This document shows, piece by piece, positions 1-22,094 of a DNA stretch of 64,000 bases. Made by a program: the position numbers and the translations under genes. Source of the stretch: a virus; the IMG/VR virus record IMGVR_UViG_3300043449_000692, positions 1 through 64,000 of that record; one strand, written 5' to 3'. Positions within the stretch are counted from its first letter, which is position 1, and each line of letters starts with the position of its first letter. The notes beneath the pieces were generated by a model. That model saw nothing but the letters and a program-made list of their open reading frames with translations. It was not told the DNA's origin and searched no databases.

Positions 1-194
1 GGACAGCAGTGGTCATTGCCTGGTCGCACCTTGTCCCAAATACTCCGCAATTCCTTCATGTGCTGCGTGTATTTCTTCATGCACCCCTTGCACTCGGGGC
101 GCAGATACCGTGTGCCGCCAAGCACGGAAAATTCGTCCACCGATTTGGTGGTGCCGCATTTAGAGCAGCAGCGGGTGGGTGTGTGTTCGTCCAT
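1..194 (-). CDS. Endonuclease VII/HNH-like zinc protein, N-terminal part (partial)
   Basis: The gene runs off the left edge; the visible 64 residues are the N-terminus, with an ATG at 194. Two cysteine pairs, C10-x2-C13 and C35-x2-C38 (CSKCG, then ECKGC), resemble the zinc-binding start of phage recombination endonuclease VII / HNH nucleases, which cut branched or specific DNA sites. The catalytic half lies outside the window, so the family is inferred from the N-terminus only. No Shine-Dalgarno precedes the ATG; it sits 8 nt after a sigma70-type -10 box, so the mRNA would be nearly leaderless. A simple zinc-ribbon protein is the alternative. Confidence 0.6.
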   Translation of the reverse strand, partial: MDEHTPTRCCSKCGTTKSVDEFSVLGGTRYLRPECKGCMKKYTQHMKELRSIWDKVRPGNDHCC

Positions 195-202
195 TGCTGT
201 GG

Positions 203-230
203 AGTGTATGTGATGGGGTGCAGAAGTCAA
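203..230 (-). promoter_or_regulatory. Sigma70-type promoter for the gene starting at 194
   Basis: On the minus strand TTGACT (225-230), a 16-bp spacer, then TACACT (203-208). The ATG begins 8 nt after the -10, which predicts a leader of about 2 nt. Confidence 0.6.
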
Positions 231-523
231 GAAAAAAAGAAAACGGTTCTTCAGGCACACACTCGGAATATTTGAAAAGTTGTGGGGGCGTGGTATGGGA
301 ACCCAATATTTGAAAACTTGGGTGGGGTGGGAGTCCCACGGCGATTTTTTGAAATGTGTTTTGTGATTTTGGATTCGCGGTGCTAACGCGCCCACTAAAC
401 CCCACCACAGACTGCCGTACACTGTTGTCCGACAGAGAGCCGCAGAGAGCCGCAGTGTGTGGGTGTGGTGGTGCGAACCTGTAACTGGTGCTTACAGGTT
501 GGGCGCGGAGAAAACTGTGGATA

Positions 524-559
524 TAAAAAAACCCCTGCCTGTGCGTAGTCAGGCAGGGG
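524..559 (-). terminator. Rho-independent terminator of the leftmost minus-strand unit
   Basis: Perfect 10-bp stem CCCCTGCCTG/CAGGCAGGGG (532-541 with 550-559) with an 8-nt loop; on the minus strand it is followed by a run of seven to eight T. It closes the unit that descends from the CobS-like gene. Confidence 0.9.
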
Positions 560-563
560 CGTT

Positions 564-613
564 GCAGATGATGGGAGTCGAAACCCCCAAGGCGGCGAAC
601 CGCTTGTCTCTGC
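564..613 (-). other. Folded RNA-like element between the last gene and the terminator
   Basis: On the minus strand GCAGA...TCTGC encloses two hairpins: GCGG-TTCG-CCGC (a UUCG tetraloop, 592-603) and GGGGG-TTTCGA-CTCCC (573-588). The arrangement resembles the variable arm, T arm and acceptor of a class II tRNA, but there is no anticodon arm. It could be a tRNA remnant or a structured 3' UTR. Confidence 0.35.
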
Positions 614-616
614 TTT

Positions 617-931
617 TTATTTAGTCTTCATACCGAGGAAGCCCTGTGCAATCAGCACCCAGCCTCGCGCAGTCAGGTCATTCCATACGGTACGCGCATT
701 GTCAGTGAACAGGGAGATGTGCCAGTCGCGCTGTAGGCGATACGCGCCATCTAGCACTGCGAGTGGTGAGCCGTCCCGCGTGGTGCAGGTGAGCCACACG
801 AATGTGAAGCCACCGTTGGGATCGTAGTGGAAGGTCACAGTGGTGAAGCCTTGACTGGACGGCTCCATGAGGACGCGGTAGTGGGTGCAGTGGTGCTTGT
901 GGGCAGTGGATTGGAATTCTTTAGTGTTCAT
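617..931 (-). CDS. Hypothetical protein, 104 aa
   Basis: I do not recognise this protein. It has a His-rich start (HKHHCTHY near residue 12) and a central stretch rich in aromatic and beta-forming residues, with no membrane segment or signal peptide. It follows tRNA-Leu by 17 nt and is the last gene before the terminator at 524-559. No clear ribosome binding site precedes the ATG, which weakens the start call. Its stop codon is the TAA in ACTAAATAAAAAG, so a late-promoter-like CTAAATA overlaps its last codons. Confidence 0.65.
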   Translation of the reverse strand: MNTKEFQSTAHKHHCTHYRVLMEPSSQGFTTVTFHYDPNGGFTFVWLTCTTRDGSPLAVLDGAYRLQRDWHISLFTDNARTVWNDLTARGWVLIAQGFLGMKTK

Positions 932-948
932 TGGTGGTGTTTCAGAAA

Positions 949-1030
949 TAGGGACACACGGATTCGAACCGTGACACCTTTCGGTACTTCATTTTGAGTG
1001 AAGCGCGGCTGCCAGTTACGCCATGTCCCC
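949..1030 (-). tRNA. tRNA-Leu (anticodon CAA)
   Basis: Full cloverleaf on the minus strand: acceptor GGGGACA/TGTCCCT (first pair G-U), D arm GCG/CGC with a GG-containing loop, anticodon stem CTTCA/TGAAG with loop CTCAAAA giving anticodon CAA (reads UUG), a long variable arm ACC-GAAA-GGT as expected for leucine, and T arm CACGG-TTCGAAT-CCGTG. CCA is not encoded. The first 15 nt overlap the 3' end of the HNH gene. Confidence 0.93.
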
Positions 1031-1387
1031 ATGTTTGTGCAGTATACGGTGGCAGTTAGCACACAGCAATACGCACTTGTTTATTTCTTCGTTTAGAGTT
1101 TTGGTTCCGTAAGAGAACGCGCTTAATTTCGCAACAGTGGTTTTCTTGGTCTTGGGATCAGTGTGATGAAAGTCCAATCCACACGGATCTTCGTTCCACC
1201 CACAACGAGAACATCCCATTTTTGACTTTAGTTCATTTACCGCTTTCCGATTTCGTTCCCGCAATCGTTGATTGGTTTCCCGAAAGCGGTCTTTGTTGTC
1301 CAGATAGTACTGCTGTGTCTGTGCTTTGGTGCGTTCGTAGTACTCGCGGCGATGGGCTTTTCGTTTTTCGGGGTCGGCATAGGGCAT
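1016..1387 (-). CDS. HNH homing-type endonuclease
   Basis: This 123-residue protein has the HNH layout of phage homing nucleases: a basic N-terminal helix rich in Arg, Lys and Glu (residues 5-60), a zinc pair CSRCG, the catalytic segment LDFHHTDP, and a second zinc pair in LLCANCHRILH. Such enzymes make site-specific nicks or breaks and spread their own gene. I chose the ATG at 1387 (MPYADP); an upstream GTG at 1405 is possible, but GGAGG sits 11 nt before the ATG. The start lies inside a perfect 15-bp inverted repeat (1377-1433), and the stop lies inside tRNA-Leu. Both are unusual. Confidence 0.85.
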   Translation of the reverse strand: MPYADPEKRKAHRREYYERTKAQTQQYYLDNKDRFRETNQRLRERNRKAVNELKSKMGCSRCGWNEDPCGLDFHHTDPKTKKTTVAKLSAFSYGTKTLNEEINKCVLLCANCHRILHKHGDMA

Positions 1388-1433
1388 GGGGTCTAAATCC
1401 TCCACATCTATTTAGAATCCCCATGCCCTATGC
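1377..1433 (-). repeat. Perfect 15-bp inverted repeat over the HNH start codon
   Basis: GCATAGGGCATGGGG (1377-1391) and CCCCATGCCCTATGC (1419-1433) are exact complements. In the mRNA they would form a 15-bp stem that buries the HNH start codon, with the GGAGG ribosome site in the 27-nt loop. Confidence 0.85.
1409..1415 (-). promoter_or_regulatory. Late-promoter-like CTAAATA upstream of the HNH gene
   Basis: CTAAATA on the minus strand, inside the loop of the inverted repeat. A transcript starting here would lack one arm and so escape the hairpin. Confidence 0.4.
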
Positions 1434-1444
1434 TGAATATTTAA

Positions 1445-1621
1445 TTAGTCAGGATCTTCGTCATCCCACTGCGGCGCGTCCCACTCGTCTTCCCACTCGT
1501 CCTCGTCTTCGGGGCGGCGGATTTCGCGGGGGTCGGCATCGGAGCGGATCGAATTTGCGAATTCGTCCCAGTCAATGGTGTCGTCACGGAGGTCAGCGTC
1601 AGAGATAAGCAGTCGGGGCAT
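1445..1621 (-). CDS. Small acidic protein, 58 aa
   Basis: Very acidic; the last 25 residues are mostly Asp, Glu and Trp (for example DEWEDEWDAPQWDDEDPD). Start MPRLLISDADL at 1621, 13 nt after the stop of the gene at 1635. The acidic, DNA-mimic-like composition is typical of small phage early proteins that bind host factors, but nothing shows a specific role. The ribosome site is weak. A longer reading frame upstream (to 1873) would run across the gene at 1635-1844 and the tRNA, so I rejected that start. Confidence 0.6.
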   Translation of the reverse strand: MPRLLISDADLRDDTIDWDEFANSIRSDADPREIRRPEDEDEWEDEWDAPQWDDEDPD

Positions 1622-1634
1622 GGTGTGTGGTGGT

Positions 1635-1844
1635 TTAGCGAGTGATGCGGACAGGAAAGGCGTTCGTGCCAGAGCGGGTGATTTCAAAAATGCCTGTTGA
1701 GCCGTTTGTGAACTGCACAATGATTTGATTTCCGCTGATCCAAGCGGTTTGGGCGTTGCGGGCAACGGTTGCGGACGGTGAATTGCTGCCCTGTTGCCAG
1801 AGCAGCACACGATTTTGCGAAACAGTGGTGTAGTGCATGAGCAT
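1635..1844 (-). CDS. Hypothetical protein, 69 aa
   Basis: I do not recognise this protein. It looks like a short beta-rich domain with alternating hydrophobic residues (VQFTNGSTGIFEITRSG) and no cysteine or membrane segment. It starts 6 nt after the 3' end of tRNA-Arg, so it is probably translated from the same processed transcript. Two possible ATG codons (1844 and 1838) lie close together, and neither has a good ribosome site. Confidence 0.55.
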   Translation of the reverse strand: MLMHYTTVSQNRVLLWQQGSNSPSATVARNAQTAWISGNQIIVQFTNGSTGIFEITRSGTNAFPVRITR

Positions 1845-1849
1845 TTGAG

Positions 1850-1923
1850 CGTCCCTGAGTGGATTCGAACCACTGACTTATTGCTTAGAAGGCAATTACT
1901 CTATCCAACTGAGTTACAGGGAC
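1850..1923 (-). tRNA. tRNA-Arg (anticodon UCU)
   Basis: Full cloverleaf on the minus strand: acceptor GTCCCTG/CAGGGAC with discriminator G, D arm with GTTGG, anticodon stem ATTGC/GCAAT with loop CTTCTAA giving anticodon TCT (reads AGA/AGG), and T arm AGTGG-TTCGAAT-CCACT. CCA is not encoded. Rare-arginine tRNAs of this type are common in T4-like phages. Confidence 0.95.
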
Positions 1924-1930
1924 GGATTTT

Positions 1931-2167
1931 TCAGTCTGCGCCTCGCGGATCGTTCCAAGTGTCGATCCCGCTGATGGGATCAACCCACTCCGAGCCGCCC
2001 AAACCGTAGTCGCGCTCCTGCGGCGGCGGTTCAGGGGTCGGTCGGTAGTCGAAAACATCGCAAGCGCGGCGATACTTTTCCAATTCACGGCGCAGACGGC
2101 AGTTTTCTGCCATGAGGTACGCGATTCGTGCGCGCTGAATCTTGATCGTGGTCATTCCGAGTGCCAT
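1931..2167 (-). CDS. Small coiled-coil protein, 78 aa
   Basis: The first half (residues 5-38) is a helix with heptad-like spacing and many Arg and Glu (RIAYLMAENCRLRRELEKYR), a likely short coiled coil. The second half is Pro-rich and acidic with no predicted fold. The ATG at 2167 follows GGAG by 8 nt. It lies between the lipoprotein gene and tRNA-Arg in the same orientation. I can name no function; small dimeric coiled-coil proteins of this kind are frequent in phage early regions. Confidence 0.65.
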   Translation of the reverse strand: MALGMTTIKIQRARIAYLMAENCRLRRELEKYRRACDVFDYRPTPEPPPQERDYGLGGSEWVDPISGIDTWNDPRGAD

Positions 2168-2186
2168 TTTTGTGTCTCCGAGTGGT

Positions 2187-2447
2187 TTACTTGATGTTGT
2201 ACTGACCGAACTGACCCATCTGCGGCGCAAATTCAGCCGAGAACTGCTGATTCGAATTCGTGTTTGCACGAATTTGGTAGTTGTTGTCCCAATGTCCCGT
2301 GAAATTGGGGTTGTAGTTGTAACCGTCCGAGCGATTCTCGTAGGTTTCGACCGATCCATCAGGGTGGCGCACAGTGCGGGTGATGTGGGTCTGCGTGTGG
2401 CAACCGCAAAGCGCGGCAGTGGTGAGGATTGTGGCGATCATTCGCAT
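2187..2447 (-). CDS. Small putative lipoprotein, 86 aa
   Basis: The N-terminus MRMIATILTTAALCGC has a positive start, a hydrophobic stretch and cysteines at 14 and 16 that could serve as the lipidation site; the lipobox (LCGC) is not ideal. The mature part is polar, rich in Asn, Gln and Tyr (RSDGYNYNPNF), with no known domain. It would be anchored in the envelope of the infected cell, where superinfection exclusion is one possible role (inference). AGGA lies about 9 nt before the ATG. A longer frame through 2975 overlaps two other genes and is rejected. Confidence 0.6.
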   Translation of the reverse strand: MRMIATILTTAALCGCHTQTHITRTVRHPDGSVETYENRSDGYNYNPNFTGHWDNNYQIRANTNSNQQFSAEFAPQMGQFGQYNIK

Positions 2448-2461
2448 GGAATTTTTCCTGT

Positions 2462-2863
2462 TCAGGCGTTGCTGGTGACGAATTCGGGCTGTGCAGTGGT
2501 GGTCGGAGCGGTCGGAGGCGTGGTCGGCGGCGCAATTCGTCCCTTCTGATTGGGCGAACCAGGCTTGCGACCGCGCTTGTTCGCGTTCACAGTGAGCGTG
2601 GCGATGTCCGCGTGGATTTCGGGGATCAGATAGTTGCCCCGTCCCGCGCGGCGAGTCTTCGTAGCCGCGATCCACGCGGGAACCGCGATGTACGGCGACT
2701 TCTGAAGCAGTTCCACCAAGTCCTTGCGGCTCACGGTGCAGGTGTCGTACACCGTCAGTGCAGCGCGATTGGTCTGAAGGAACTTGATGAATTCGATCTG
2801 ACCAGGCGTGTAGGAGGCGAGGAGGGGAAGAGCGGCGGTGTTGTTGTTGTTGTTCGTAGTCAT
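2462..2863 (-). CDS. Stand-alone copy of the CobS-like protein's N-terminal domain
   Basis: Of the 133 residues, 59-102 match residues 55-97 of the CobS-like protein encoded just upstream: both carry AVPAW, then R-x-GRG-x-Y, a PE-x-x-AD step and KRGRKPGS. The RGRKPGS piece resembles an AT-hook-like basic patch, which suggests DNA binding or a contact surface (inference). The C-terminal 30 residues are a Thr/Pro-rich tail. The ATG at 2863 follows AAGGA by 9 nt; an in-frame ATG at 2872 is too close to that site. The protein may compete with or regulate the AAA+ protein that carries the same module. Confidence 0.7.
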   Translation of the reverse strand: MTTNNNNNTAALPLLASYTPGQIEFIKFLQTNRAALTVYDTCTVSRKDLVELLQKSPYIAVPAWIAATKTRRAGRGNYLIPEIHADIATLTVNANKRGRKPGSPNQKGRIAPPTTPPTAPTTTAQPEFVTSNA

Positions 2864-2883
2864 TGAAGGCATTTCCTTTTGTG

Positions 2884-3201
2884 TTAGCGGGACGAAACCC
2901 AGTTGAGAATCTGAAACAGTTCGGTGATCGGGACGAATCCCTTGACTTCTTGTCCGTCCTTGAACAGGACGGCATCGTTTTGCGGATTGTGGATTGCGAT
3001 CTCTACAGTGCCAGCGTACTCCATGTCTCCGAGCGGGGCAGTGATACGCTCACCGCGCTCGTTGGTACTGTACGCAAGTGCGCCATAGATCACACTTGCA
3101 GAGTACCCGTTCGGAAACTTGATCCTGAGTTGGTTGTGTTCGTGAAGCGTTTTCCCCTGTTGGGGGGTGTGGACGATTTTGATTCCGCCGAGCGTACTCA
3201 T
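2884..3201 (-). CDS. Hypothetical protein, 105 aa
   Basis: I do not recognise this protein. It looks like a compact alpha/beta domain with the segment LRIKFPNGYSASVIYG and an acidic middle. It has no signal or membrane segment. GGAGG stands 6 nt before the ATG at 3201, so translation should be efficient. It is the second gene after the CobS-like gene with only 12 nt between them, so it very probably shares that transcript and perhaps its function. Confidence 0.7.
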   Translation of the reverse strand: MSTLGGIKIVHTPQQGKTLHEHNQLRIKFPNGYSASVIYGALAYSTNERGERITAPLGDMEYAGTVEIAIHNPQNDAVLFKDGQEVKGFVPITELFQILNWVSSR

Positions 3202-3213
3202 GTGTGCCTCCGA

Positions 3214-4566
3214 TCAGAACGGGCAAGCGTTGGGATCGTTCGCCTTCGCGGTGTTCGCGGCGGCATCGGTCGCGTCAGCGGGCTTCGGCTGCGCGTCCGC
3301 GTCCACCTTCGTGTAGAACTGCACGAACGACTCCTTCGTGGTCGGGTCGAACCGCGACACGCACCGCTCAATCGCGGTCATCTTGTCACCGAACACGGAG
3401 TACGCGAACACGATGTCGCGCAGACGGCGCGTGGTGATGATCTCGCTCACCACCTGCTGCTTGAACGACTTGCGGATGATGTCCGCCCACGAAACGAGAT
3501 TGTCGAGGAACGCATCATCGTTCACGCCAAGCCCGTCCGCGACCTTCTTGAGAATGCGCTTCTCAATCTTCGGGTCAGCGTAGTCCTGCTCGTAGGTGAA
3601 CGCGAAACGGTCAAGGAACGCCTCATTGAGGATGTTCGTGCCAGCGAAACGACCGTCATCGCTGCCCTTGCCCTTCGTGTTCGCAGTGGCGACCACGGTG
3701 AAGCCAGGCGCAGGACGCACATACTTGCCGATCTTCGGGATGAACTTGCCCTTGCCCTCAAGCACCGACTGAAGGCACATGATGAGGTGACCGCCGAGGT
3801 CGATCTCGTCAAGGAGCAGCACCGCACCGCGCTCCATAGCGACAAGCACGGGACCAGGCACGAAACGAGTCTCGCCGCCGATCAGACGGAAGCCACCGAG
3901 CAGTTCGTCCTCATCGGTCGCGGCGGTGAAGTTCACGCGCACACACTCGCGCTTCAGCGAGGCGCACACCTGCTCCACCATCGTGGTCTTGCCGTTGCCG
4001 CTCAGACCCGTGATGAACACGGGGCAGAACCGCTTCGACTTGATGATCGACTTGATCTCGTTGTGGTAGCCCCACGGAATGTAGTTGTCATCCGTGGCGG
4101 GAGTGAACGATTCGCTCTCGCCCTGCGTGATGGTACGGGCGAGTTCAGCCGCGTCCGTGCCAGCGGTCAGAGCGACCGCGCTGCACTCCTCAACGACAGG
4201 AGCGTTCGCAGTCACGACAGGAGCGGGAGCCGCAACAGCCTTCGACTCCGCGCGCTTCGCGGTCTTCATGGACTTGCTGCCAGGCTTGCGACCACGCTTC
4301 ACTTCGGTGATCGTGAACGCGGCATCGTCCGCAAAGAGTTCAGGCAGCGCGTACACGCCGCGACCCACCTTGCGGTCGCTGCTCATGCACCACGCGGGAA
4401 CAGCAGCGTAGCCCGCAGCGTGAGCCGCCTTGAACAGCGGCGAGAACTGCACCGACTGCCCATTGCAGGTGGTCTTCGCAGTGAGTCCGTGCTTCGCAAG
4501 GTGCGAACGCACGGCGGCGATGAAAGAGTGCTGAGTGGACGAAACGGTAAAAGAAGCGGTCTTCAT
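3214..4566 (-). CDS. cobS: CobS/MoxR-like AAA+ ATPase
   Basis: This 450-residue AAA+ protein has Walker A GLSGNGKTT (187-195), Walker B VLLLDEID (249-256) and a sensor region with ATANTKGKGSDDGRF (about 291-305), as in cobaltochelatase CobS and MoxR ATPases, which act on a partner with a VWA domain. That partner is the gene upstream (4691-7051). Residues 55-97 form a module shared with the small gene at 2462. I chose the ATG at 4566 because it lies 7 nt after the -10 box; the ATG at 4575 overlaps that box. No CobN is present, so the target is unknown: chelatase subunit or a phage-specific remodeller. Phage copies are often annotated cobS. Confidence 0.85.
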   Translation of the reverse strand: MKTASFTVSSTQHSFIAAVRSHLAKHGLTAKTTCNGQSVQFSPLFKAAHAAGYAAVPAWCMSSDRKVGRGVYALPELFADDAAFTITEVKRGRKPGSKSMKTAKRAESKAVAAPAPVVTANAPVVEECSAVALTAGTDAAELARTITQGESESFTPATDDNYIPWGYHNEIKSIIKSKRFCPVFITGLSGNGKTTMVEQVCASLKRECVRVNFTAATDEDELLGGFRLIGGETRFVPGPVLVAMERGAVLLLDEIDLGGHLIMCLQSVLEGKGKFIPKIGKYVRPAPGFTVVATANTKGKGSDDGRFAGTNILNEAFLDRFAFTYEQDYADPKIEKRILKKVADGLGVNDDAFLDNLVSWADIIRKSFKQQVVSEIITTRRLRDIVFAYSVFGDKMTAIERCVSRFDPTTKESFVQFYTKVDADAQPKPADATDAAANTAKANDPNACPF

Positions 4567-4573
4567 GTGGTTC

Positions 4574-4602
4574 ATTGTACTGTATTCCTAGGCTTTTTTC
4601 AA
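4574..4602 (-). promoter_or_regulatory. Sigma70-type promoter of the CobS-like gene
   Basis: Minus strand: TTGAAA (4597-4602), 17-bp spacer, TACAAT (4574-4579). The ATG begins 7 nt after the -10, predicting a start at or 1 nt before the ATG, that is a leaderless mRNA. No Shine-Dalgarno is present. Confidence 0.75.
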
Positions 4603-4608
4603 TCGCGG

Positions 4609-4629
4609 CGGGGACAGCGCGTCCGATAA
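4609..4629. repeat. Shared upstream element, copy 1 (CobS-like gene)
   Basis: CGGGGACAGCGCGTCCGATAA. Nearly the same sequence occurs at 7132-7153 upstream of the CobT-like gene, with one extra base in that copy. It lies 6 bp upstream of the -35 box. Candidate operator or activator site. Confidence 0.65.
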
Positions 4630-4690
4630 TATCCGCCGTAACCTCTTGTAACTAAACGATTTACACCATTTGCAGAAAATGGGGAGTTTT

Positions 4691-7051
4691 TCACACCGCG
4701 AGGCATTCACCGATGTGGGTCGCCACCGTGCGGAGCGAACCCTGCGCGATCTGCGTTTCCATGAACGCCTTCGCCAGTGCGCCCTTCGTGGAGGCAGCGT
4801 CCATGCGCTCTTCAGCCTTGTCAAGGAACTGCTGCGCGGTGCGGGACACTTCGCCGTTCGCCTCGCGGAGGAAGCGGTCGGCATCCACCACGATGGCAGA
4901 GTCCCAACCCCAAACATCGCCGCGCAGGAAGCCGTCACGCTTCCAATTGTTGTCCTTGCACACCATGCCGTAGTGCGAGGGGTCAAGGTTCCTACGGTGC
5001 AGCGTCAGACCGATCCAGTGGATCTTCGCGCCAGTGCGGCGGCGGATGATGTCCGCAGCGATCATCGCGTGGGGATACTGCACGGTTTCGGGAATGCCTT
5101 CCGAACCGAACTGGAAGTAACCCGCGAACTTGCGGTAGCCGTACTCGTCCTTCGTGTACTTGCGGAGGCGCGACAGGTCATAGGTCGCACCCGTGCGCGG
5201 ATCAGCGATCACGACAGCCGAACGCTTGGAGTAGTCGCGGCTGTTGGCGGTAGTGCCAGTGACGGCATCCATGTTGAAATCAATGCAGTCGGTCGGCTCA
5301 CCGTCCGTCAGCACGACAGTGTGCGCGATCTGCACACGGGTACGCTTCACGAAAGACTCCACAAGATCAGCAGCAGCAACGAGAGCCGCAGTGGTCGGCG
5401 TACCGTTGAGCGCGTAGCGGTGGTCGCAAGTACCCATCTGACGCCAGTTCCACAGGCAGGTCTTCGCGGCTTCGTACTCCGCACCGTTCATGCGCGAGGA
5501 CAGGAAGTTCAGCATCGTGACATCGCGGGTGACGAGTTGGGCGTTCTTGCGCCGCTTCTGATCGGCATCCCACGCCGCCTCGCGCTCCTGCACAGCGGTC
5601 GCGCTGAGGTAGTCCTTGCCGTTCGTGTACATCTGATCCGAGAAAGCGTACACTTCGAACGGAACGCCGACCTTGCGGCAGAAGTCCGCGAGGATGAACA
5701 ACTGACCAATCGTGGACTGCATGATCGGACTCATGGAGGACGACCAGTCAAGCAGAATCACGATGCCGTGGTTCTTGCCGTCAGCGATGCGCGTGGTGCG
5801 GCGGAAGATGTCCTCGTTCCACTTGTACTGATTCATGCGGAGGGTATCAAGCGAACCCGTCTTCGCCACCGAGGTGCGCCGCCAATTGTCAGCAGCCTTG
5901 CGGCGGTTGAACGCGGTCGCCATCGTGACCGAGGCGGTGGTGTAGTCCGAGATGCGGACAGGCGCACCCATGTAGCGGCTCATGGCAGACGAACGCATAT
6001 CCGAAAGCACGGTCTTGAAGTCCACCACACGCGCCGACTGCGACAGGTTGTCCGCGCTCACGCGCACGATCTCGTCCACGCCGTCACTCGTCTTCGCAAA
6101 CTGCTCAAGAGCCTTCTCAAGGTTCTGATTCGTCTGCGGGGCGATGCTGCTCTGCATCTCGTTGTTCACGACACGCTTACCGTTGTTGCCCTTCGCGGCA
6201 GACTCGCCGTCTTCCTGCGAATCCGAGGGCTTGTCACCCTTCGACTGCGACTGCTCCTGCGAGTCCGACTTCGACTCGTCACCCTTGCCCTTGCCGTTGT
6301 TGGCTTCGGCATCGCTCTCCTGCGGCTCACCAGTCTCGCCTTCGGCATCCACGCCCTCGCCGTCTTCGCCGTCCTCATCGCCCTCGTCCGAGGGAGCAGA
6401 CACGGACTGCTGATCGTCCTGCTGCTGCTGCGCCTTCGCCGCCTGTTCCTGCGCCCACACGATCATGTCCTGCGCGAGGCTCACGACATCCGCCCAAGTA
6501 GCGGTAGTCTCGCCGCGATTCACAAATTCCTGCTCCTCCGCACTGAAGCGGATCACCGTGCCAGCGTGAACGCCACACTTGAAGTGCAGGTTGAAGCGGT
6601 CAGCAAAGATCATGCTGTTCGGCTTTGAAATATCGCCAAAGAACTCGCGCTCCATCAGGGTCTTGTACGCACCGATGAAGTCCGACTTCAGACCACGGAA
6701 CTTCGCCTGAATCATGCGCTCAATACGCGCGTCCTCAACGATGTTGAGGTACTGCTTCGCAGTGTCCTTGTCGCAACCCGTGGCGGCAGCGACCGAATCA
6801 ATCGCGGTGCGCCAACCGTCCGCAGGAGTGAACAGGGCGTGAGCCACTTCGTGACCCACAAGCATATCGTACAGCGCACCGCTGGCGTTCGACCACAGCG
6901 GGAGGTGCAGACTGCGCGTCTTCAGGTCAAAGAACGCGGTCGGGATGTTCTGGTGGACCACCGAAATGTTTTCAGTGGCAAGCAGACGCGCCAGCATGGA
7001 CTTCGCGGCGGTAGGTGCGGTCGGGAGAGCGGTAGTCAGAGTCGGAACCAT
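4691..7051 (-). CDS. cobT: CobT-like protein with HExxH-type N-domain and VWA domain
   Basis: A protein of 786 residues. The N-domain has HEVAH (67-71) followed by NIVEDARIE (103-111), matching the H-x3-H plus E-x-A-R-x-E pattern of CobT and related metallopeptidase-like domains. A low-complexity acidic linker (about 218-290) leads to a C-terminal VWA domain with MIDAS DWSSS (435-439) and LTDGEPTD (about 577-584). This is the CobT/ChlD plan: the VWA part binds an AAA+ ring, here the CobS-like protein next door. The start at 7051 was chosen because it lies 6 nt after a TACAAT box; the longer frame to 7306 runs through the promoter. The HExxH could mean a protease rather than a chelatase. Confidence 0.85.
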   Translation of the reverse strand: MVPTLTTALPTAPTAAKSMLARLLATENISVVHQNIPTAFFDLKTRSLHLPLWSNASGALYDMLVGHEVAHALFTPADGWRTAIDSVAAATGCDKDTAKQYLNIVEDARIERMIQAKFRGLKSDFIGAYKTLMEREFFGDISKPNSMIFADRFNLHFKCGVHAGTVIRFSAEEQEFVNRGETTATWADVVSLAQDMIVWAQEQAAKAQQQQDDQQSVSAPSDEGDEDGEDGEGVDAEGETGEPQESDAEANNGKGKGDESKSDSQEQSQSKGDKPSDSQEDGESAAKGNNGKRVVNNEMQSSIAPQTNQNLEKALEQFAKTSDGVDEIVRVSADNLSQSARVVDFKTVLSDMRSSAMSRYMGAPVRISDYTTASVTMATAFNRRKAADNWRRTSVAKTGSLDTLRMNQYKWNEDIFRRTTRIADGKNHGIVILLDWSSSMSPIMQSTIGQLFILADFCRKVGVPFEVYAFSDQMYTNGKDYLSATAVQEREAAWDADQKRRKNAQLVTRDVTMLNFLSSRMNGAEYEAAKTCLWNWRQMGTCDHRYALNGTPTTAALVAAADLVESFVKRTRVQIAHTVVLTDGEPTDCIDFNMDAVTGTTANSRDYSKRSAVVIADPRTGATYDLSRLRKYTKDEYGYRKFAGYFQFGSEGIPETVQYPHAMIAADIIRRRTGAKIHWIGLTLHRRNLDPSHYGMVCKDNNWKRDGFLRGDVWGWDSAIVVDADRFLREANGEVSRTAQQFLDKAEERMDAASTKGALAKAFMETQIAQGSLRTVATHIGECLAV

Positions 7052-7057
7052 GCCTAA

Positions 7058-7086
7058 ATTGTACTGGAAAATAGGCGTTTCTGCAA
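7058..7086 (-). promoter_or_regulatory. Sigma70-type promoter of the CobT-like gene
   Basis: Minus strand: TTGCAG (7081-7086), 17-bp spacer, TACAAT (7058-7063). The ATG begins 6 nt after the -10, which places +1 on the A of ATG. Confidence 0.75.
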
Positions 7087-7131
7087 GCGTCACCCGCCGA
7101 AAATCGTAAATCCTTGTCAAATAAGGGGTTA

Positions 7132-7153
7132 CGGGGACAGCGAGGTCCGATAA
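7132..7153. repeat. Shared upstream element, copy 2 (CobT-like gene)
   Basis: CGGGGACAGCGAGGTCCGATAA, matching 4609-4629 except for one substitution and one inserted base. Here the core also forms CGAGGT-CCGATA-ACCTCG, a perfect 6-bp inverted repeat. It lies 45 bp upstream of the -35 box. Confidence 0.65.
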
Positions 7154-7282
7154 CCTCGCAGGGGGGCGCGTCTGCCCCGTTCCCGCGCCCCGAATATTCC
7201 AATCGCGCTCACCTGCGCGTGTCCAGGCTGTCGAGAGAGCGGACGGAATGAATCCATTAACACCGCACTTAATGGGTACAGT

Positions 7283-7296
7283 CACGAGTACTCGTG
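7283..7296. repeat. Perfect 14-bp palindrome
   Basis: CACGAGTACTCGTG, exact dyad symmetry, in the middle of the divergent region. This is the expected shape of a dimeric repressor site. Confidence 0.6.
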
Positions 7297-7381
7297 CGCC
7301 CAGCACGCAGGCAGCCCAGCAGCACCAATTTTTGAATGCGAACTAAAGTAGTTCCCGCCCCTATTCTTCGCGGATTTCCCC

Positions 7382-7390
7382 TGCTACAAT
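7382..7390 (+). promoter_or_regulatory. Extended -10 promoter for the gene at 7417
   Basis: TGCTACAAT, an extended -10 element; no good -35 is visible at the proper distance. A leader of about 20 nt with GGAGG precedes the ATG at 7417. Confidence 0.5.
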
Positions 7391-7416
7391 GACAACATAC
7401 AAGTGGAGGATTACCA

Positions 7417-7836
7417 ATGGCTTACCTCAAAAACCCGCGAGTACAGCACTTCCTCAAAACCATCCGATCACAATGCAAGAAGTGTAATGTACGCTTCACC
7501 CTTTCCAGTGGCTACGAAGTAAACGGCGGCGGTGAACGCTGCCAAGGCTATTTCTTGGAACCGTGGCATCAGCGCGGACACCAAGGCGAACTGCGTGTGG
7601 CAATCGGTGGTCGCCGCACCTCTGACTGGCTCTACACCCTTGCCCATGAGTACGCCCACTTTCAGCAGTGGATGCGGGATGACCCCATCTACCGAGAGCG
7701 GGACTACATGACACTAGAAGTACAGACCGAAGCCGAGGCACTAGAACTGTGCAGAAAGTTTAAATTGCCTATTCCACGCCGTGTACTGCTGAAGGAACAC
7801 CGCAAGTACATGAAGAAACTTGCACGGGAGTGCTGA
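7417..7836 (+). CDS. HExxH zinc metallopeptidase-like protein, 139 aa
   Basis: The core LAHEYAHFQQW (about residues 75-85) is a metallopeptidase HExxH helix, and TEAEALELCRKF about 20 residues later can supply the third ligand, as in SprT/ImmA-type small peptidases. The N-terminal pair CKKC may bind another zinc or be structural. There is no signal peptide, so it acts in the cytoplasm. GGAGG lies 7 nt before the ATG. With the FmdB-like gene that follows it opens a short plus-strand unit ending at the terminator at 8901. The substrate is unknown; host repressor or repair-protein cleavage are possibilities. Confidence 0.7.
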   Translation: MAYLKNPRVQHFLKTIRSQCKKCNVRFTLSSGYEVNGGGERCQGYFLEPWHQRGHQGELRVAIGGRRTSDWLYTLAHEYAHFQQWMRDDPIYRERDYMTLEVQTEAEALELCRKFKLPIPRRVLLKEHRKYMKKLAREC

Positions 7837-10227: not shown

Positions 10228-10748
10228 AATCGTTCACCGATCACCTCTGCGAGGGCATGGAACACGGCGACCGCCCGAAGCCGAAGCCCGAGTATTTCAA
10301 GCACCCATTCAGCATCAGCGGCAAGATCGTGCAATTGTATCCCATGTACGGTGTGCCAGTGAAGACGAAGAGTTACATCAGAATACGCTCCTCCATCGGT
10401 GATCGGGAGGGATACGCAGCAGGACAGGCTTCTCCTGGTCAGAAAGCGTATGATGCGAAGATGAGCGTGTGGCGATGGCGCGTTCGCATTCAGACAGATG
10501 AAGGCTGGATGCTCATGGGCTACATCGGCAGCACAAAGACGAAGGAATCGCTGCCGCCCATTCGCTTGGGCGATACCGTTGAAGTCACGAATCTCATTCT
10601 GTCTGTTCGCACAGGCGGAAGCCAGATGACATACGCTGATCCGTTCATCAAGGGCGGCTACAGCACAACTTCAGACAAAGAGGTGGACTACCGCTCCGCG
10701 AAGTTCTCGCGTCAACTCCACGGAAAGGTGAAGCGTAAAGCCGTATGA
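10224..10748 (+). CDS. Candidate head-packaged protein, 174 aa
   Basis: N-terminus MKSFTDHLCEG, again with an L-x-E/G site like that used by the T4 prohead protease. The remainder is beta-rich (WMLMGYIGSTKTKE, then RLGDTVEVTNLILSVRTGG), which could be an OB-like nucleic-acid-binding barrel, ending in the basic tail QLHGKVKRKAV. It overlaps both neighbours by 4 nt (ATGA). No enzyme motif is visible. Confidence 0.7.
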   Translation: MKSFTDHLCEGMEHGDRPKPKPEYFKHPFSISGKIVQLYPMYGVPVKTKSYIRIRSSIGDREGYAAGQASPGQKAYDAKMSVWRWRVRIQTDEGWMLMGYIGSTKTKESLPPIRLGDTVEVTNLILSVRTGGSQMTYADPFIKGGYSTTSDKEVDYRSAKFSRQLHGKVKRKAV

Positions 10749-12019
10749 TAGACTTCCGCTCTTATCTGGTCGAACTTTTCGAGCGTCCGTACCCTGTGCG
10801 CGAGTACAAGCGGCTCGGAAGCGGTATTGCCACATTGGAAATCACATACCATGCCCAAGTTGATGGTGGCAAGGACTTGATGATTGACATCACGAACATC
10901 GGCAAGGGATGGGAAATCAACTTCACGCTTGACGGCTCACATGAACTCACTCACGCAGGAAAACCTTATCGCATCTTGGCAACGGTGGTTGCAGCAGTGA
11001 AACTGTTTCTTAAGTGGCATACCGAAGCGTGGGGTGAGTTGCCGAAGCAGTTTGACATGATTTCCAAAACAACCGAAGGCAAGCGCGATGCGGTGTACAC
11101 TGCACTCATGCAACGGTTCGGCAAGGAGTACGGCTACAAGATTGTGAATCGTTCAACCATAAATCGTCAATTCCGTCCCGAAGATCAGCGCACCGTGACC
11201 ACGGCTAAACTGGCAGAGGCTGTTGCTGCTTCCGCCAAGCGCAAGGCTCTCCGTGTATTTGACTTTGATGACACGCTCGTACACACGAACGCGCCTGTGG
11301 GATTGGTGCGTGACGGCAAGCGTGTGCGCGACCTCACCTCTATGCGGTTCCGAGACTACATCTTGCAACCAGGCGAGTCATACGATTTCAGTGCAGCGAA
11401 TGAGGTGATTGATCCGCGACCTATTGGTGCAGTGCTGAAGGTGCTGCGTCAGGTTCTTGCACAGGGCAAGGACACCGTGATCCTCACGGGACGCGCAGAC
11501 GGAGCAGCGGTGCAGCGTTGGTTGAAGACTATCGGTATCACCATTCCCGTGTTCACGGTGGGTCACGCGGATGCCACGCACACATCCATTGCACAGCGAA
11601 AGCGTGACTGGTTGGTTAACGCAATCGAACAGGGCTACAACGACATTGAGTTTTTTGATGACAACGCAAAGAACATTCAGTATGCGAACACACTGAAATC
11701 TGAATTCCCCCACATCAAACTTCGCACCCGATTGGTGAAATACAAGTCCAAGCAGGGAGTGCATGAGGAGCGGGACTACAAAGCCGAATACGCAAAAATG
11801 TACGGTGGCGACAATCCCACTCCAAAGCAACGCCGCGCCATGAAGAAGAAGACTGCGCGAAAGCGTGTGCTTCGGCGCATGGGTCGTGAAGGTCGCTCGA
11901 ATGACGGCAAAGAGATTGACCACAAGAACGGAAACGCACTGGATTCGCGTCCGTCCAACCTGCGATTGGTGGCTCGGCACACCAACAGGTCAAAGGACAA
12001 CAACAAGTGGCGCAAATGA
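10745..12019 (+). CDS. HAD phosphatase-HNH nuclease fusion with targeting N-terminus
   Basis: A three-part protein of 424 residues. Residues 1-12 (MIDFRSYLVELF) fit the capsid-targeting pattern. Residues 168-335 are a HAD phosphatase: FDFDDTL (D173, D175), ILTGR (248), a basic residue near 286 and FFDDN (304-308); phage polynucleotide 3'-phosphatases are of this type. Residues 380-424 are a small HNH-like domain with IDHKNGNALDSRPSNLRLV. A phosphatase joined to a nuclease suggests DNA- or RNA-end processing soon after injection (inference). It is the last of four ATGA-linked genes. Confidence 0.8.
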   Translation: MIDFRSYLVELFERPYPVREYKRLGSGIATLEITYHAQVDGGKDLMIDITNIGKGWEINFTLDGSHELTHAGKPYRILATVVAAVKLFLKWHTEAWGELPKQFDMISKTTEGKRDAVYTALMQRFGKEYGYKIVNRSTINRQFRPEDQRTVTTAKLAEAVAASAKRKALRVFDFDDTLVHTNAPVGLVRDGKRVRDLTSMRFRDYILQPGESYDFSAANEVIDPRPIGAVLKVLRQVLAQGKDTVILTGRADGAAVQRWLKTIGITIPVFTVGHADATHTSIAQRKRDWLVNAIEQGYNDIEFFDDNAKNIQYANTLKSEFPHIKLRTRLVKYKSKQGVHEERDYKAEYAKMYGGDNPTPKQRRAMKKKTARKRVLRRMGREGRSNDGKEIDHKNGNALDSRPSNLRLVARHTNRSKDNNKWRK

Positions 12020-20195: not shown

Positions 20196-20864
20196 ATGAA
20201 AACATTTGATCATGCGTTCGTGAGCCTGAACGACCAAATTGAAAGCGTTGAAACCCCAAACGGCAGGAGATACCGAACTCCTGACGGCATTCTTCCGTCC
20301 GTGACTACGGTTACAGGATGGAAGAAGCGTGCATTTTTTGCAAAGTGGCGGCGTGAAAATCCTGAAGAATCCAAGCGAGTACTGTCCCGTGGCACCAAAC
20401 TACACGCACTTATTGAAACCTATCTCCGCAACAGTCTTACGCCAACTACGCTCGCTGAAGCGGAGGGAACAAGTGAGGCGGATCTGTTTGCATCCATGCG
20501 GGAAGATATTGACCGCATCGGCAAGATATACGCCATCGAAGTACCGCTATGGTCTAAAAAAGTGGGACTCGCTGGTAGGACGGACTGCATCGGGGAGTTT
20601 GATGGTGTACCGTCAGTCATCGACTTCAAGTCTTCCAATTATCCGAAGTCCGAGGATGCCATTCAGGACTATTTCATGCAAGCCACCGCGTATTCTCTCA
20701 TGTGGCAGGATCGCACGGGTCAAGAACTGCGAAATATTGCCATTCTGATCGGTGTGGAAGACGGTGGTTCACAGGTGTTCACAGCCGATCCCCGCGAGTA
20801 CATTGCTGATTTGGTGGACGCAATTCGCACATACCGCGAGGAACAGGCAGTCCAAATTTCCTAA
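20196..20864 (+). CDS. PD-(D/E)XK exonuclease (RecB/Cas4-like)
   Basis: A protein of 222 residues from MKTFDHAF. The features of a RecB-family nuclease are in order: RGTKLHALIE (about 67-76, the HxxxE-type helix), VGLAGRTDCIGEF (about 125-137, with the first Asp), VIDFKSS (the D-x-K core) and QATAYSLMW (the Q-x-x-x-Y motif). These enzymes degrade or trim DNA ends. A domain of this size is found in phage and mitochondrial (MGME1-like) exonucleases. Its stop codon lies inside the late promoter of the next gene. Confidence 0.85.
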   Translation: MKTFDHAFVSLNDQIESVETPNGRRYRTPDGILPSVTTVTGWKKRAFFAKWRRENPEESKRVLSRGTKLHALIETYLRNSLTPTTLAEAEGTSEADLFASMREDIDRIGKIYAIEVPLWSKKVGLAGRTDCIGEFDGVPSVIDFKSSNYPKSEDAIQDYFMQATAYSLMWQDRTGQELRNIAILIGVEDGGSQVFTADPREYIADLVDAIRTYREEQAVQIS

Positions 20865-20867
20865 ATA
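20861..20867 (+). promoter_or_regulatory. Late promoter CTAAATA overlapping a stop codon
   Basis: CTAAATA contains the TAA stop of the exonuclease gene. It lies 18 nt before the TTG start at 20886, with GGAGG in the leader. Confidence 0.65.
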
Positions 20868-20885
20868 CGGAAGCGGAGGACTGCA

Positions 20886-22094
20886 TTGATCAGATTCACG
20901 GAACATCTCACGGAAGCCTTCAAATCAAAAAGTGGCAAGAATGTCCATTTGGAGCATCTTGAAGACGAAATACTGAATGGTGGCTACGCAGGATTCAGCC
21001 GTGCGGTTTCTGCTATCCGTGGAGTGCTTGATGTATTCGGAGCAAACGAGCCAAGCACATACGACATCACCGTGAAGTGGGACGGCGCACCCGCCATCAT
21101 CTGCGGAATCGACCCAGGCAGCGGTCGATTTTTTGTTGGCACGAAGAGTGTGTTCAATGTGACACCTAAACTGAACTTCACGAACGCCGACATTGATGCG
21201 AACCACCCCGCAGATGGACTGAATGCTAAACTCAAACTTGCACTAAAGCATTTCTCCAAACTAGGAATTCGTGGAGTGCTGCAAGGCGATCTGCTGTTCG
21301 ACAGCGAAACAGTGCAGCGTGAAACGATTGACGGCAATCGGTATCTGACATTCCGCGCAAACACAATCACATACGCGGTTGATCCAAAGAGCGAACTCGG
21401 CAAGCGGATTGCCGCTGCAAAGATCGGAATTGTGTTCCACACAGCATACGAGGGCGACTCGTTGCAGACGATGACTGCAAGATTCAATCCCGACATTTCG
21501 TATCTAAAGAAGACCCGCGATGTGTGGTTCGACAACGCAACTCTGCGTGTGGCAGATGGCAGCGGATTGTTCTCTGCGCGTGATCGTCAAGCGGTAGAGC
21601 GCAGCATCGACACCCTGACACAGCAAGCCGCTGCACTGAAGACCACGATGAACGGTATTGCCAAGAACGAAGGCGTGAAGATCGCCATCAAGACCTACAT
21701 CAACGGACTTGTTCGTGCAAACATGGGCAGCGGTCACGCAGATGTGAATCAGTTGCTGGCAATGATGGCACAGAAAGCACAGACTGCGCGAAAGAAGCCA
21801 AGCACAAAGACCACTCCAAGCATGGATTGGATCAAGCGGAATCGCAACCAGATCAATCAGATTTTCGCCCTACATAATTCGTTGACCGTGCTGAAGATGA
21901 GCATCGTCAGCAAACTGTCTTCACTCAAGAGTGGGATGGGAACATTTGTAAAGGACGGCAAGGGATACCGTGTTACCGCTCCCGAAGGCTATGTGGCAAT
22001 CGACCGCATGAGCAACGCAGCCGTCAAACTAGTAGACCGCCTTGATTTCTCGCGCAGTAACTTCACTGTAGAGAAGACTTGGAAAAAAGAGTAA
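20886..22094 (+). CDS. KxDG nucleotidyltransferase (ligase-like) with targeting N-terminus
   Basis: TTG start at 20886, justified by GCGGAGGA 6 nt upstream. The N-terminus (M)IRFTEHLTEAF has a canonical L-T-E/A prohead-protease site. KWDG at residues 64-67 (VKWDGAPAI) is motif I of covalent nucleotidyltransferases such as ATP-dependent DNA and RNA ligases; GVLQGDLLF and GIVFHTAY may correspond to later motifs. The C-terminal 150 residues are helical and unknown. It is likely to be an end-joining or capping-type enzyme carried in the virion (inference); the acceptor substrate cannot be told from sequence. Confidence 0.75.
   Translation: MIRFTEHLTEAFKSKSGKNVHLEHLEDEILNGGYAGFSRAVSAIRGVLDVFGANEPSTYDITVKWDGAPAIICGIDPGSGRFFVGTKSVFNVTPKLNFTNADIDANHPADGLNAKLKLALKHFSKLGIRGVLQGDLLFDSETVQRETIDGNRYLTFRANTITYAVDPKSELGKRIAAAKIGIVFHTAYEGDSLQTMTARFNPDISYLKKTRDVWFDNATLRVADGSGLFSARDRQAVERSIDTLTQQAAALKTTMNGIAKNEGVKIAIKTYINGLVRANMGSGHADVNQLLAMMAQKAQTARKKPSTKTTPSMDWIKRNRNQINQIFALHNSLTVLKMSIVSKLSSLKSGMGTFVKDGKGYRVTAPEGYVAIDRMSNAAVKLVDRLDFSRSNFTVEKTWKKE

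Follow-up and report, generated by a model that had tools for sequence, protein, structure and literature searches.

The window analysed here is a 64,000-nt stretch of a 96,211-base viral contig (G000). Near one end of it, a predicted HNH endonuclease gene lies within a run of genes that all read on the minus strand, from 7306 to 617. It follows a 58-aa ORF, whose stop at 1445 is 5' of the hairpin described below, and its own frame ends inside a tRNA-Leu(CAA) gene (Table 1). The HNH ORF matches PHROG HNH families (phrog_3106, E 1.5e-28), while a Pfam search of the protein gave nothing at E 0.001. The protein carries the invariant CxxC pairs (zinc cysteines), the conserved HH and the CxNCHR motif; its nearest protein matches are about 34-48% identical, and none of the matches listed exceeds 48% over most of the length. 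An Rfam scan of 800-2000 returned two tRNAs and no other known RNA family. Elsewhere in the window, an ORF at 10745-12019 (plus strand) combines a polynucleotide-kinase-like region with a C-terminal HNH match.

Table 1. Positions of the features at the HNH locus and of the hairpins at two further genes (window coordinates, except for the last line, which is given on the contig).
Feature	Position	Strand	Remark
Outer stem, upstream (5') arm	1419..1433	minus	non-coding; between the stop of the upstream gene and the promoter
Inner 5' arm, TCTAAAT	1410..1416	minus	overlaps the candidate late promoter
CTAAATA, candidate late promoter of gp55 type	1409..1415	minus	+1 predicted at 1403 from Aeh1 spacing
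GGAGG, Shine-Dalgarno	1399..1403	minus	within the 11-nt loop; at the predicted 5' end of the late RNA
Inner 3' arm, ATTTAGA	1392..1398	minus	
Outer stem, downstream (3') arm	1377..1391	minus	holds the ATG (1387-1385) and the MPYA codons
HNH endonuclease, 123 aa from the ATG	1016..1387	minus	last codons and stop inside the tRNA-Leu gene
tRNA-Leu(CAA)	948..1031	minus	differs in sequence from the tRNA-Leu(CAA) that relatives have at this site; 5' end overlapped by the HNH ORF
Segment without counterpart in the closest relative	952..1430	minus	hairpin, promoter, HNH gene and tRNA
Second promoter-in-hairpin, CTAAATA at 20861-20867, stem GGCAGTCC/GGACTGC	20861..20900	plus	over the SD and start of the phrog_455 gene, 20886-22094
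Hairpin at the neck-protein gene, enclosing CTAAATA	G000 89606-89560	minus	covers the SD and ATG; beyond the window

The start of the HNH gene is embedded in a perfect 15-bp inverted repeat. As an earlier note on this DNA had stated, the arms (GCATAGGGCATGGGG and CCCCATGCCCTATGC) are exact complements, and the 27 nt that separate them contain both a GGAGG and a CTAAATA box. The complementarity can be extended to 18 nt at 94%. Overlooked in that note was an inner 7-bp stem (TCTAAAT paired with ATTTAGA), which is set off from the outer one by a 2-nt bulge and closes on an 11-nt loop, AGATGTGGAGG. The GGAGG lies in this loop, and the CTAAATA box spans the inner stem and the loop. The hairpin folds at -36.6 kcal/mol (z -6.4), a value equalled by 0 of 200 shuffles. 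With loops of up to 60 nt allowed, it is the contig's longest inverted repeat; in 20 contigs shuffled by a first-order Markov model, the maximum was 13 bp. Allowing up to 3 mismatches, no other copy of either arm was found in the contig beyond one 3-mismatch chance match. A pattern search with the inner hairpin matched 32 viral stretches, none of them recognisably 5' of an HNH gene.

The phage is T4-like. Its contig codes for the late sigma factor gp55 (G000:71899-72519; phrog_234, E 8e-59) and also for a sliding clamp (phrog_223), clamp loader subunits, RegA, UvsW, UvsY, the major head protein and the portal. CTAAATA occurs 12 times in the 64,000-nt window against 2.3 expected, and 11 of the 19 copies in the contig lie near predicted gene starts, compared with 16% for permuted heptamers. 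Copies were found 5' of the tail tube, neck, tail-fibre, RegA and UvsW genes. At the level of sequence, CTAAATA thus behaves as a late promoter of the gp55 type, and the gp55 gene, the over-representation of the motif and its clustering at gene starts bear out the earlier note, which had taken the box in the spacer for a late start. In phage Aeh1, late promoters have the sequence CTAAATA, with the motif starting at -12 (PMC1524935). Applied to the box at the HNH gene, this spacing places +1 at 1403, the first G of GGAGG, so that the predicted late RNA would be made without the upstream arm. A GTG at 1405 was considered as an alternative start codon; it is open in frame but lies 5' of the predicted +1 and was rejected.

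A search of the minus strand for terminators across 1-7500 gave one terminator-like site, at 560-531 after the last ORF, and none between 7306 and 560. Because none was found upstream of the HNH gene, upstream RNAs would be expected to read through into it. In such a read-through RNA, the predicted pairing probability of the AUG is about 1.0, in line with the earlier claim that the stem hides the ATG in a long transcript, while the GGAGG is mostly free (predicted pairing 0.08). Strictly, therefore, the stem hides the start codon and not the Shine-Dalgarno sequence. A 30S subunit could, in this model of the fold, dock on the loop GGAGG of the long RNA, which would count against silencing. The late transcript had also been proposed to be open. 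The upstream arms would be absent from it, and in RNAs that begin 3-8 nt past CTAAATA the AUG is less paired than in the read-through RNA (0.18-0.64 against about 1.0); the GGAGG, however, is predicted to be about 0.73-0.77 paired in those late RNAs whose start retains it.

Comparison with related phages indicates that the hairpin arrived with the gene. With the neighbouring MoxR-like ATPase as query, we found 27 related loci, several of them 86-98% identical, in which the gene order is unchanged wherever the region is covered. At the closest loci, a short spacer separates the 58-aa ORF from a tRNA-Leu(CAA), with neither HNH gene nor hairpin, and the HNH gene is absent between the same neighbours in L024, L025, L027-L030 and L033, which thus present the empty site. 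Similarity between the window and L024 ends at 1431 and restarts at 951. A search of 16 related phage records detected no homologue of the HNH protein, and a DNA similarity search with the cassette gave matches limited to the tRNA-Leu and a 55-base stretch of the HNH gene. Since the relatives lack the HNH gene and the tRNA-Leu(CAA) in the inserted segment is dissimilar from theirs, the cassette has replaced the resident tRNA; the hairpin, promoter, HNH gene and replacement tRNA-Leu would then have entered the locus together as one unit, and we infer homing by the HNH enzyme. The upstream arm (TTCAGCATAGGGCATGG; 1419-1436) is weakly similar to the displaced tRNA-Leu at its 5' end, as seen in L024 (CTCGGCACTGTAGCCCAATGG), and could be left over from a tRNA, the resemblance being very short.

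Two other genes of this phage apparently carry the same device. When the duplex between upstream and downstream flanks was computed across the 24 [CA]TAAATA sites in the contig, the strongest was that at the HNH gene (-38.1 kcal/mol), the other 23 being at -22.9 kcal/mol or weaker. The neck gene ranks second (-22.9 kcal/mol; 0 of 200 shuffles) and the phrog_455 gene at 20886 third (-17.9 kcal/mol; reached by 1% of shuffles), and at both the arm 5' of the promoter pairs with the SD and the start codon. The neck-protein gene hairpin looks like a second late-translation switch, although a swap test on four sequences was not significant (P 0.21). The phrog_455 gene has a TTG start, and its hairpin region covers 20841-20900 (plus strand). 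In relatives, it retains in most cases an enclosed promoter whose arms are altered yet still pair, and in a swap test on the window and 11 other loci native arms beat swapped ones with P 0.0006, a value that phylogeny can inflate.

Promoters enclosed in hairpins also precede HNH genes of other T4-like phages. The HNH genes of the type found in S-WAM2 (L188-L205 and the S-WAM2 gene) lie in tRNA clusters and have TATAAATA within a hairpin just 5' of the ATG; of the 83 matches of a DNA pattern search that was blind to protein, 18 were such HNH genes. Across the 8 distinct sequences of these hairpins, 93.8% of cells are paired and 4 pairs are altered on both sides. Their covariation score was reached by 0 of 500 shuffles and was lost when the partner was slid by 1-3 columns, and native arms paired better than swapped ones (P 0.002, in a test which, like the other swap tests, shares phylogenetic structure). 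As a control, late promoters were taken from the first 50 kb of S-WAM2, which gave only two usable sites. In a further type, with proteins beginning MPYKD (L087, L174, L183, L110, L117 and L317), ATAAATA or CTAAATA lies inside hairpins of differing sequence; here no signal emerged from the swap test (P 0.36), in part because the split applied to this group removes some of the 3' arm. The hairpins at these other HNH genes share no arm sequence with the one at the HNH gene of the window. By eye, L176-L181 show a similar hairpin 5' of the HNH gene which holds a TTGACA/TATAAT-like promoter and not a late promoter. In L174, L177 and L183, a sequence similar to a tRNA 5' half, as far as the D-loop, lies just 5' of the HNH cassette, as if a tRNA gene had been interrupted by the insertion. 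A generic scan for GGTTC-CTAAATA-GAACC found an HNH gene downstream in 2 of 80 analysed matches, so this pattern alone is uninformative.

Sequestration of translation initiation by a hairpin that is bypassed from a late promoter is established for the T4 genes e, soc and 49 and for I-TevI (PMC2988022, PMC3014915). In the same papers, the switch is also described for I-TevII, I-TevIII, segB and mobE of Aeh1. The parallel with homing endonucleases and other genes of T4 that the earlier note had drawn therefore has precedents in I-TevI, segB, mobE, e and soc. I-TevI, in the td intron, resembles the window in that a hairpin hides initiation in early and middle RNA and an adjacent upstream late promoter yields RNA without the 5' arm. 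It differs in that the enzyme is of the GIY-YIG type and encoded in an intron, and that the hairpin sequesters the ribosome binding site, whereas the window has a free-standing HNH gene with the AUG and first codons paired, the GGAGG in the loop and the predicted +1 at the GGAGG. Aeh1 mobE is likewise a free-standing HNH gene with a hairpin that sequesters its ribosome binding site, in a phage whose late promoters are CTAAATA; it sits among nrd genes, whereas the HNH gene of the window precedes a tRNA. T4 segB is a free-standing homing endonuclease gene among tRNA genes, with a predicted late promoter and hairpin, and is tied to preferred inheritance of the tRNA region, but it encodes a GIY-YIG enzyme and lies between tRNA genes, whereas the HNH ORF ends within a tRNA which has itself been replaced. 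The T4 genes e and soc are late genes whose long early transcripts are silenced by a 5' arm preceding the late promoter, as is proposed for the HNH gene; they encode lysozyme and a capsid decoration protein, and their counterparts in the present phage are the neck-protein and phrog_455 genes. By mechanism and in every feature testable here, the hairpin of the window is a further member, as judged from its sequence, of the T4-type class of late promoters in hairpins. It departs from the others in that the AUG is buried instead of the SD, that the RNA is predicted to start at the SD, and that the device travels with a replacement tRNA.

Most probably, then, the hairpin is a switch that confines expression of a mobile HNH gene to late infection. 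Long RNA from upstream early or middle promoters would carry both arms, and its fold, with a stem of about 22 bp, would enclose the AUG together with the first codons and thereby keep the nuclease from being made. Late in infection, RNA polymerase with gp55 would initiate at the CTAAATA inside the hairpin; the 5' end of this late RNA would lie at or near the GGAGG, the upstream arms would be missing, and the start codon would be free for translation. We infer read-through transcription, the late start site and translational repression; the mechanism put forward in the earlier note is thus well supported in silico, short of proof.

There are other ways to account for an inverted repeat at this position. 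It encloses a promoter, as would a palindromic operator through which the HNH protein or another repressor acts at the DNA over the late promoter, and autorepression of I-TevI at its own late promoter, through an operator that resembles its homing site, is documented as an extra layer of control. We consider this improbable here: the 27-bp separation of the arms is long for a simple operator, the arms are unlike those of the hairpins at other HNH genes, and the compensatory changes in the S-WAM2 family fit RNA pairing better. Repression at the DNA and an RNA switch are not mutually exclusive.

Two further possibilities deny the repeat a role at the HNH gene, and we regard each as very improbable. 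The repeat starts about 12 nt past the stop of the upstream ORF and is very stable, as might be expected of a terminator or an RNA processing or stability element of that gene, with the overlap of the HNH start being incidental. On the minus strand, however, the stem has no U-run behind it and the scan for terminators gave no site at this position, so the terminator reading was rejected; relatives lack the hairpin behind the same upstream gene, and the repeat sits at the edge of the inserted segment. The position of the insertion junction at the upstream arm would instead suit a by-product of the insertion itself, in which template switching copied the HNH start into the upstream flank with no regulatory role, and a perfect 15 bp is unusual in a purely selected RNA stem; the downstream arm is constrained by the MPYA codons. 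Such an origin leaves unexplained the inner stem across the 2-nt bulge, the late promoter inside the hairpin, and the occurrence of the same layout at unrelated HNH and late genes.

The other end of the HNH gene also shows a recurrent arrangement. Among 82 distinct HNH relatives, 22 have a tRNA on the same strand that starts between -60 and +150 of the HNH stop, and in 20 of these 22 the frame overlaps the tRNA, often by ten bases; in many relatives, the stop codon is a TAG or TAA at conserved tRNA positions 8-10. In the window (1016-1031) and in L092, L086, L183, L193, L195, L196, L198 and L218, the HNH frame enters the following tRNA through its 5' acceptor strand, the stop in the window being slightly deeper in the tRNA than positions 8-10. 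In a literature search of limited reach, we found no description of HNH genes that end inside the next tRNA. It is possible, though we would stop short of calling it probable, that free-standing HNH genes of T4-like phages form a class of tRNA-parasitic cassettes, each with its own late promoter in a hairpin at the 5' end and a frame that continues into the acceptor strand of the tRNA behind it and often stops at conserved tRNA positions 8-10, which home by cutting a resident tRNA gene and substituting their own copy, and that this lineage also uses promoters in hairpins, kept by compensatory change, on several unrelated late genes.

If the switch operates as proposed, the late-translation control of T4 would extend to a high-GC lineage of T4-like phages beyond the coliphage models, where it is seen moving as part of a mobile cassette. 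The natural compensatory variants in related phages make the mechanism testable, and a simple genome-wide screen suggests itself, in which late promoters would be sought by the pairing of their upstream flank with the start site on the downstream side.
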